From: Micromonospora sp. MW-13
GTDB taxonomy: Bacteria > Actinomycetota > Actinomycetes > Mycobacteriales > Micromonosporaceae
DNA: 64,000 nt
Assembly: GCF_003434305.1 (NCBI RefSeq)
Contig: NZ_QKKX01000011.1
Location: forward strand, 310,001-374,000
Direction: 5' to 3'
Shown here: one piece after another, positions 11,809-13,708 of the stretch
Position numbering within the stretch: the stretch's first letter is position 1
Layout of the letters: every line of letters starts with the position of its first letter
The notes under the pieces: generated by a model
What the model was told of the DNA's origin: nothing
The model's input: only the letters and a program-made list of their open reading frames with translations
Database searches by the model: none
Position numbers and translations under genes: made by a program

Positions 11809-12294
11809 CTAGGGCGACCGGCACGGGCGCCTGCTGATCCGGATGGCGTACCAGACGGCGCTGACCAGGAACAGGGCGGCGGTGATGGCGAGCCAACGGC
11901 TGAGATAAGGCTGCCGATGCTGGCCGGTGGCGGCGAGGTACGTGGATCCGCCCTGCCCGAGAATGCCGGGCAGATACACCAGGAACAACAGCCCCCCGGC
12001 GAGGGCGGGAAGTCGGATGTGGTTCAGCGCCGACACCCGCGCCCCCGATCCGGGGTGCGCGTCGACGCCCAGCAGCCGGCGCAGGGCCGCGTCGGCCGTG
12101 GCGTAGACCGGGAAGAGGAGCAGGTCGTGGACGACGGCCGCGCCGACGAACCAGAGCAGCATCCGCTCGGCTCGGGGTTCCCCGACGAGCCGCAGCACGA
12201 TCCATCCGGTCACCGCGAAGCAGGCCACCATGAGGACCAGATGCCGCAGCCCGGTGCCGTACCAGGCCCGGAACCCGCCGGTCGACTCACGCAT
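11809..12294 (-). CDS. small integral membrane protein downstream of the Mo-enzyme
   Basis: The 161-residue protein has about four hydrophobic helices (around residues 18-37, 44-64, 92-112 and 133-152) and no recognised enzymatic motif. Its ATG overlaps the stop of the molybdopterin oxidoreductase gene by eight bases, so the two are translationally coupled and probably work together, perhaps as an assembly or electron-transfer partner. Function is unknown. Confidence 0.75.
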   Translation of the reverse strand: MRESTGGFRAWYGTGLRHLVLMVACFAVTGWIVLRLVGEPRAERMLLWFVGAAVVHDLLLFPVYATADAALRRLLGVDAHPGSGARVSALNHIRLPALAGGLLFLVYLPGILGQGGSTYLAATGQHRQPYLSRWLAITAALFLVSAVWYAIRISRRPCRSP

Positions 12295-13708
12295 TCCGGG
12301 CCCGGAACTCGATGGAGTTCACCCACTTGGTGCAGTGCACGCCGGGCAGGGCGGGCACGATGACCCGGGCCGGGTAGCCGTGGTCGAGGGAGAGGTCCGC
12401 GCCGTTCACCCGCAGGGCCAGCAGCGCGTCGGGATCCAGGATCTGGTGGGACGCCAGCACGGCCTGGTTGAACAGGCCGGCCCGCTCCAGGGAACGGACC
12501 GTCGCCGAGACGGGGGCGGGCACGCCCGCGAGGGCGGCGAGGTCGCGCAGCCGCACGCCGGTCCAGGTCTGCCGGGTCGACCAGCCCTCGACGCAGGCGA
12601 TGGGCAGCTCCGCGGTGTGCTGCGGAAGGCTGAGCAGTTGGTCCCGGTCCAGGGTGGCGGTGCGTTGGCCGCCGCGTAACGCCAGCCGCCACTGCCGGCC
12701 GGTGTCGGCTTCGCCGACGCCCGCTGCCGCCGCAGCCCGGTTCACGGGAAAGCCGTTCGGTCCGCCGCCCGGCGCTCGGCCGCGGGGCAGCAGCAGCGCG
12801 GTGCGGCGCAGCGGATCCAGGCTCTGGCCCACCGTCAACGCGCCCAGCAGCAGGGACAACCCGCCGACCAGGGCCAGCGCACCCCGCCGGGTCTCCGTAG
12901 CGGGCCCGGGGCGGGCGGCGACCAGGCCGTCGGGGTCGGCCGGCTCGGCCCGGGTCGCGGCGCGGGCGGCCCGCAGCTCGCCCCGGGGGGACCGGGAACG
13001 CAGCGCGGACACCAGCCGGGGCAGCTTCAGCACGACGTGGACGACGAACGCGGCGGTGAACACCCACGCCCCGAAGTAGTGCGCGGTGTAGAAGTCGAAG
13101 CCGAACAGGTACGCGTACTGGATGTTGAGCAGCCCGGTGGCGATCTGGAACAGGATTCCGCCGACCAGCAGCAGCAGGGACAGCCGTTCGAGCACCTGAG
13201 CCAGGGAGCGCGCCGGCGGCCAGTCGAACAGTTTCGGGGTCACCGACCACAGCTTGGCCAGCACGACCGGCACCAGGACGATGCCGAGCGTCACGTGCAG
13301 CCCCTGGGTGAGTCGGAACAACCAGGCGGGCCGGGTCGGCCAGTCGAAGGGCGGCAGCCGGAGCCAGCCGACGTCGCTGGGCAGGGCCTGACCGAACTGG
13401 GGGCCGTAGGCGGCGTAGTCGAGCAGGCCGGTGACGATCACCAGGGGCAGGCTGACCAGCAGCGCCAGCCCGTACACCGACGTCAGCCAGGGGCCGCGCA
13501 GCGGGCTGCGCCACCGACGGTCGAGCCCGGCGATCCCGGGTGGCGGGTGCCGGTCCAGGACGCGCCACAGCCGACGCGGGAACGCCGACGGAGTGCCGCC
13601 CGTCCCGGGCGACGTACCCGGCGGGTCGCTGCCGGGCGGCCCGCCCGCGCCATCGTCCGGGAGCGAGGCCGGATTGCTGCCAGCTATGGCCGTTCCTCCG
13701 TTCCGCAC
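12287..13708 (-). CDS. membrane cytochrome b / molybdopterin-dependent oxidoreductase fusion
   Basis: The protein is about 473 residues. Four TMs (about 75-95, 134-152, 177-195, 211-229) carry candidate haem histidines (QGLHVTLG, TAHYFGAW, FVVHVVLK). A twin-arginine segment TRRGALALVGG (Arg274-Arg275) leads into a fifth TM. The C-terminal SUOX/YedY-fold domain has the Mo-ligand candidate Cys372 (IACVEGWS) and ends in GVHCTKWVNSIEF. The layout places the Mo domain outside the membrane, fed electrons by the b-type part. GTG 13708 was used, but no good ribosome site is visible, and an in-frame GTG about 33 codons upstream is possible. Substrate is unknown. Confidence 0.82.
   Translation of the reverse strand: MRNGGTAIAGSNPASLPDDGAGGPPGSDPPGTSPGTGGTPSAFPRRLWRVLDRHPPPGIAGLDRRWRSPLRGPWLTSVYGLALLVSLPLVIVTGLLDYAAYGPQFGQALPSDVGWLRLPPFDWPTRPAWLFRLTQGLHVTLGIVLVPVVLAKLWSVTPKLFDWPPARSLAQVLERLSLLLLVGGILFQIATGLLNIQYAYLFGFDFYTAHYFGAWVFTAAFVVHVVLKLPRLVSALRSRSPRGELRAARAATRAEPADPDGLVAARPGPATETRRGALALVGGLSLLLGALTVGQSLDPLRRTALLLPRGRAPGGGPNGFPVNRAAAAAGVGEADTGRQWRLALRGGQRTATLDRDQLLSLPQHTAELPIACVEGWSTRQTWTGVRLRDLAALAGVPAPVSATVRSLERAGLFNQAVLASHQILDPDALLALRVNGADLSLDHGYPARVIVPALPGVHCTKWVNSIEFRARNA

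Follow-up and report, generated by a model that had tools for sequence, protein, structure and literature searches.

A family of dual-targeted proteins that combine haem and molybdenum was first found by bioinformatics (Tooke et al. 2017, PMC5449189), and its described member is Sco3746 of Streptomyces coelicolor. According to that paper, cysteine labelling of a Sco3746 reporter fusion showed five transmembrane domains (TMDs), and export of the reporter in Escherichia coli was abolished when the conserved RR pair was changed to KK. Export of an AmiA reporter was likewise abolished in a tat mutant, and both RR and the Tat system were required for export of the reporter and not for its insertion into the membrane. 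Homologues outside Actinomycetota are also named by Tooke et al. In the main text of the same paper we found no operon, no Sco3745 or Sco3747, no gene cluster and no mention of a downstream partner of Sco3746. The literature has presented the family as an export model since 2017, and an enzymatic assay of any of its members was not found in the literature searched.

The window analysed here, a stretch of 64,000 nucleotides from Micromonospora sp. MW-13, carries a gene of this kind (P0001), a haem-b/Mo-domain fusion of 473 amino acids that occupies positions 12287-13708, stop codon included, on the minus strand. The initial annotation had given these coordinates correctly and had named no strand. 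A GGAGG motif lies immediately 3' of the GTG start at 13708, so the start codon of the fusion gene is not certain. An AlphaFold2 model of 430 residues, built from the window protein starting at residue 44 together with 81 sequences from named loci, reached a mean pLDDT of 82.8 and a pTM of 0.80. In it, four long helical regions are followed by a loop, then by a fifth helix that begins at the twin arginine, and finally by the Mo domain. These helices and a match to PF00174 confirmed that a four-TM cytochrome, a fifth TM and a domain of the YedY/SUOX fold are joined in one polypeptide, as annotated. All features of the protein lie on the minus strand: TM1 (residues 73-101; 13406-13492), TM2 (residues 128-161, with one break in the helix; 13226-13327), TM3 (residues 169-197; 13118-13204) and TM4 (residues 206-238; 12995-13093) precede the internal segment TRRGALALVGG (residues 273-283; 12860-12892). 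Its twin arginine (residues 274-275) stands directly ahead of TM5, a helix modelled over residues 274-293 (12830-12889) and predicted to be Tat-dependent by comparison with Sco3746. The C-terminal part is a Mo-cofactor domain of the sulfite-oxidase fold (PF00174, residues 338-471; 12296-12697), matched at an E value of 1.4e-24 with a score of 87 bits, the cut-off being 24. Its predicted Mo ligand, Cys372 (12593-12595), sits in the loop CVEGWS and was invariant in the 82 sequences of alignment A2, which comprises the window protein, 80 loci from Streptomyces or near-Streptomyces and one copy of a second clade (clade B).

The initial annotation had also assigned the first four helices to a b-type cytochrome. 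This assignment was upheld by three histidines, His138 in TM2 and His210 and His224 in TM4, which were invariant in 82/82 sequences of alignment A2, and by PF01292, which was matched at E values up to 0.01 by 17 of 24 aligned members of the fusion family; the window protein itself, however, scored 22.2 bits with PF01292, under the cut-off of 30.1. A second look at structural comparison paired the helices with FdnI (Z 9.7), hydrogenase cytochrome b (Z 9.2) and superoxide oxidase (Z 9.1), values of 9-10 that fall inside the range often reached by helical bundles. A single b561 protein, YodB, gave no alignment with the cytochrome part.

Phylogenetic inference (FastTree, midpoint-rooted) resolved the fusion into two clades, clade A (62 rows, support 0.984), which includes the window protein, and clade B (33 rows, support 1.0). 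At position 98 in TM1 (13415-13417), His was found in 33/33 clade-B rows, while clade A has mostly Tyr, as in the window protein, otherwise Trp or Phe and rarely His. Haem ligation may therefore differ between the clades. Two genomes carry a fusion of each clade, approximately 13 kb apart in one (L113, G298) and approximately 3 kb apart in the other (L112, G191). A possible split form occurs on a plasmid of Rahnella sikkimica (L330, 2417-3856), where an unfused cytochrome b/b6 gene precedes a gene for a molybdopterin oxidoreductase.

Sco3746 was placed by its published residues and TM spacing rather than by its sequence, and on that basis it likely belongs to the clade of the window protein. 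The residues compared were G14, G84, A137, G171, A219, G234, S235, M239 and F240 (the last number being a misprint that we took as 240). The best match among the first loci fetched was 4/8; across 80 Streptomyces loci at most 5/9 were matched when counting from the start codon and 6/9 at any offset. S. parvulus and S. tendae have GSLLMF in TM5, one residue away from the published spacing, and for TM1-TM2 the spacing reported for Sco3746 agrees with the window clade. The fusion alone is a further member of an already published family, for which the idea of Sec first and Tat afterwards is in print.

The gene directly downstream (P0002; 11809-12294, minus strand) encodes a predicted four-TM protein of 161 amino acids. 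Its ATG begins 8 bp ahead of the end of the fusion gene, and the two genes share the overlap ATGCGTGA (12287-12294). The second TM helix contains a conserved motif, His56-Asp57 (12124-12129). P0002 itself matched no Pfam or NCBIfam model above cut-off, and its own structural model was middling (pLDDT 72.7, pTM 0.45) and returned nothing below an E value of 5 in fold searches (best Z 5.6). No model fitted the wider family either. No Pfam model was found in more than 6 of 33 partner sequences at E values up to 0.1 (the best being PF01757, E 0.0011), or in more than 5 of 78 in a larger set at the same threshold, and no NCBIfam model, searched with the set of 33 only, in more than 2 of 33. One single member matched DUF4153 (E 8.4e-6). 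On plasmids of Arthrobacter sp. U41, Mycobacteroides abscessus 50594 and Rhodococcus sp. AQ5-07 the partner is annotated as a hypothetical protein, its homology having been checked in our study. A description of the partner family or of the gene cluster was not found in the open literature, the scope of a search that most subscription papers fell outside. The membrane protein that had been annotated downstream of the fusion is real and, within that scope, uncharacterized, and it carries more weight than the initial annotation had estimated.

The association of the two genes was close to obligate. In a tally compiled by hand, the partner lay within 192 bp and on the same strand in 59/59 clade-A fusion copies, which came from 55 of the 394 genomes of the class. 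A match to P0002 was present in all 55 genomes with a clade-A fusion, and conversely 55 of the 56 genomes with such a match have a clade-A fusion. A weak match without a clade-A fusion was seen in G279 (E 8.5e-4), and in G382 a further partner-like match (E 1.8e-22) lies approximately 0.4 Mb from the fusion of that genome. In 41 genomes (the window's own and its relatives), the partner was found in 17/17 with clade A. Among the 80 Streptomyces loci it was recovered in 80/80 by profile, one per locus and all with the His-Asp motif (HD), and in 77/80 by BLAST. Seventeen loci were also fetched from other classes of the phylum; 16 had the partner, and the 17th (L326) stops at a contig edge. No partner match was detected within 6.3 kb of the unfused Rahnella pair.

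A search with P0002 found the partner behind only one clade-B relative (G035), and the suggestion that clade B lacks a partner was rejected once the downstream ORFs were read. In the first set of clade-B loci a partner lay directly behind the fusion in 33/33, where it was chosen as the most hydrophobic downstream ORF, by position and hydrophobicity with no similarity required. On a simple scale, four or five hydrophobic segments were counted in 31 of these proteins and three in the other two, and 32/33 carry HD (VD in L022). The clade-A and clade-B partner profiles aligned with an hhalign probability of 98.5 (E 3.4e-15). When 65 new clade-B loci were searched with the profile of the 33, 64 matched at 1e-21 or better; HD is present in 61 of these, and the other three have DD, DD and ND. 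A profile from those 64 alone recovered 33/33 of the first set at 3.2e-15 or better. One locus (L258), perhaps rearranged or damaged in assembly, has a clade-B fusion with no recognizable partner downstream. As a control, 443,521 bases and 3,890 ORFs were searched, drawn from the window, 20 long loci and a second stretch of the window's own genome on contig C9. The only hits of the clade-B profile were the 21 ORFs behind 21 fusions, and the clade-A profile hit 19 of those 21 and no other ORF. Fusion and partner also diverged together (r 0.87 over 78 loci and 0.84 over 33 loci, with 0/999 shuffles reaching either value), although shared ancestry alone also yields values of this size. Since clade B keeps both the TM1 His and the partner, the idea that the partner supplies a haem ligand in place of the His missing from clade-A TM1 was unsupported. 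Taken together, we lean towards P0001 and P0002 forming one membrane complex, an outward-facing haem-b/molybdenum oxidoreductase with a dedicated four-TM subunit.

Five core genes recur near the pair in relatives, encoding an NAD-dependent epimerase, a polytopic protein, a family 2 glycosyltransferase (GT2), a DUF2064/TIGR04282 protein and a SAM methyltransferase, often with a two-component system. The polytopic protein has seven or eight hydrophobic segments and no Pfam match, and the GT2 is nearest to dolichyl-phosphate hexose transferases, though far under the cut-off of that model. These genes would form a putative lipid-linked sugar pathway and point to an envelope glycan or a lipid-linked sugar. 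All five were present in 52 of 68 Streptomyces loci with full flanks. In 20 loci of 18 kb, picked by hand, at least four of the five occurred in 7/7 same-genus clade-A, 6/9 other clade-A and 4/4 same-genus clade-B loci; among the nine clade-A loci of other genera, two have the methyltransferase alone and one has none of the five. In L113, the GT2 and methyltransferase genes are present in two copies each. Plasmids of Arthrobacter (L327, 1657-2343) and Rhodococcus (L329, 1750-2427) carry, directly upstream of the fusion, proteins of no known family that are 54 per cent identical, and the Rhodococcus protein begins like a secreted lipoprotein. We assume that Rv0539-Rv0541c of Mycobacterium tuberculosis correspond to the GT2, DUF2064 and polytopic genes. 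A review (PMC3229680) lists Rv0541c as an uncharacterized GT-C candidate in mannoside synthesis.

This neighbourhood could be inherited synteny with no functional link to the enzyme, a reading that we regard as a serious contender, if somewhat less probable than its opposite. None of the five genes was found in the window; in the same genome they lie together on contig C9 (L358, approximately 283,033-287,702) and the pair on C11, and the 19.5 kb around the C9 cluster contain neither fusion nor partner, whereas relatives in the same genus have the pair near the cluster. Six of the 68 full-flank Streptomyces loci likewise have none of the five. Against simple synteny, the same set surrounds both of the deeply split clades, with order and strands varying, which suggests that a fusion of either clade can occupy the same place. 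Moreover, most of the set recurs on the M. abscessus plasmid, where the GT2, DUF2064-type protein, methyltransferase, fusion, partner and polytopic protein are together and no epimerase was found within 6 kb.

As for the partner, it may be an assembly factor, acting in haem or Mo-cofactor insertion or in the hand-over from Sec to Tat, rather than a subunit. A dedicated chaperone would fit near-obligate adjacency equally well, and we hold this to be possible but doubtful. The TM-reporter constructs of Sco3746 carried no partner and were nevertheless inserted and exported in E. coli (PMC5449189), so the partner was not required for the Sec-Tat hand-over there. The strong co-divergence of fusion and partner also speaks for a subunit, though not decisively.

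The enzyme could instead be a one-piece MsrPQ, drawing electrons from menaquinol to repair methionine sulfoxide in proteins outside the cytoplasm, with the partner as an accessory. The same parallel was drawn by Tooke et al. (PMC5449189). An alignment of the Mo domain with E. coli MsrP spanned 155 columns (E 2.6e-8) and placed CVEGWS opposite CVEAWS, which leaves room for methionine sulfoxide reduction; structural comparison also returned MsrP, at Z 13.8. Elsewhere the resemblance to MsrPQ was not sustained. The cytochrome part compared with MsrQ at an hhalign probability of 0.6 per cent and leans to the cytochrome b561 and FdnI types, MsrQ did not align with the partner either, the NCBIfam MsrP model scored 27.4 bits against a cut-off of 207, and the usual neighbours in relatives are sugar-pathway genes. 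The initial annotation had hinted at an MsrP-type activity; of this hint the CVExWS loop shared with MsrP stood, whereas the cytochrome part is not MsrQ-like. On this evidence we judge methionine sulfoxide repair to be rather unlikely as the role of the enzyme.

A much less probable alternative holds that the twin arginine merely fixes topology and that TM5 is inserted by Sec. TM5 is moderately hydrophobic, and two homologues of one genus have RG (L148, G261) or RA (L098, G235) in place of RR, with Cys, His and the partner gene intact. However, RR was present in 93/95 rows of the two-clade alignment (62 clade-A and 33 clade-B rows, in which the G016 gene was entered twice and from which one partial sequence was dropped), in 65/65 further clade-B loci and in 82/82 rows of alignment A2, a degree of conservation that is not chance. 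Summed over these three partly overlapping sets, the pair is kept in 240/242 rows, and export of the Sco3746 fusion was lost when RR was changed to KK. The initial annotation had named homologues without the RR pair as evidence against its reading of Sec for the first helices and Tat for the last. This check was run, and with only 2/95 rows lacking RR, both from one genus, the reading was not refuted. Support for Sec insertion of TM1-4 and Tat export at TM5 comes from the Sco3746 experiments and from RR conservation, and the window protein agrees with the sequence features compared, except for the rank of TM5 in hydrophobicity. On the Kyte-Doolittle scale, which is not the published energy scale, the clade-A median of the best 19 residues was 1.83 for TM5 and 1.54 for TM4, and TM5 fell under TM1 and TM3, about level with TM2 and over TM4. 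As TM5 is not the least hydrophobic helix in clade A, low hydrophobicity does not set it apart. Within 15 residues behind TM5, at least one Arg or Lys was found in 95/95 rows, with a median of three in clade A and two in clade B. Dual targeting by Sec and Tat is established for the Sco3746 reporters and probably well founded for the window fusion.

A membrane-bound sulfite or sulfane dehydrogenase that passes electrons to the quinone pool is the reading we find hardest to sustain. In its favour, the solved structures that match the Mo domain best are sulfite oxidases and dehydrogenases (sulfite dehydrogenases at a best Z of 17.7). Against it, the NCBIfam SoxC, SorA and SorT scores (41, 33 and 27.4) lie far under their cut-offs (420, 600 and 570), two proteins on C9 and C33 of the same genome score far higher and are yet under the cut-offs, and the fusion stops right behind its Mo domain.

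Our preferred reading, a complex of the fusion with its partner as subunit, would operate as follows. By analogy with the Sco3746 reporter fusions, Sec would insert TM1-4 and leave TM5 behind, and Tat would then recognize RR and carry the C-terminal part across, with TM5 remaining as an anchor. Before this export, the Mo domain would acquire its cofactor and fold in the cytoplasm. The b haem or haems held by His138, His210 and His224 would relay electrons between the external Mo site and the quinone pool. The partner, whose second helix carries the His-Asp motif, may be a structural or quinone-site subunit, as its near-obligate adjacency and co-divergence suggest. From the neighbourhood in relatives, the enzyme might serve an envelope pathway with a glycosyltransferase of the polyprenyl-phosphate-sugar type, a DUF2064 protein, a methyltransferase and an epimerase. 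As a speculative extension, to which we would give a low probability, the pair may represent an outer-face Mo enzyme that oxidizes or reduces a sugar linked to a lipid or bound to the surface, built as a Sec/Tat fusion with a near-obligate His-Asp subunit of a new family, distributed over several actinobacterial classes and often accompanied by its own glycosyltransferase, methyltransferase and epimerase genes.

What is new in our study is not the fusion, but the unnamed partner that almost always accompanies it and the gene set that recurs around the pair. The partner offers a handle for purification and reconstitution of the enzyme, and the sugar-pathway neighbours suggest a testable substrate class other than methionine sulfoxide. 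Both may also help to explain a likely relative of the window fusion in M. tuberculosis, Rv0218, which was recognized by its published description rather than by sequence comparison. Rv0219 would presumably be the partner of Rv0218. Rv0218 has been reported to span the membrane several times and to end in a molybdopterin domain, and variation in Rv0218 has been tied to disease form (PMC5800017); it has also been described as a possible sulfite oxidase (PMC2936551).

In summary, the locus can be set against several known systems. MsrPQ (YedYZ) shares a Mo domain with the CVExWS loop, and its separate membrane b-type cytochrome does a comparable job; the window enzyme differs in being fused in one chain and in having an extra four-TM partner. 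FdnI, hydrogenase cytochrome b and superoxide oxidase are four-helix cytochromes that the helices of the fusion may resemble, at Z values common for helical bundles and with hints of PF01292 in the fusion family, but the window clade has only three invariant histidines. The actinobacterial Rieske protein QcrA is, as described in the literature consulted, also handled by Sec first and Tat last, yet it has two Sec helices and an FeS domain and is part of a bc1 complex. The Sco3746 family is like the window fusion in having five TMDs, RR right before TMD5, positive charges behind TMD5, an outside Mo domain and three conserved histidines.
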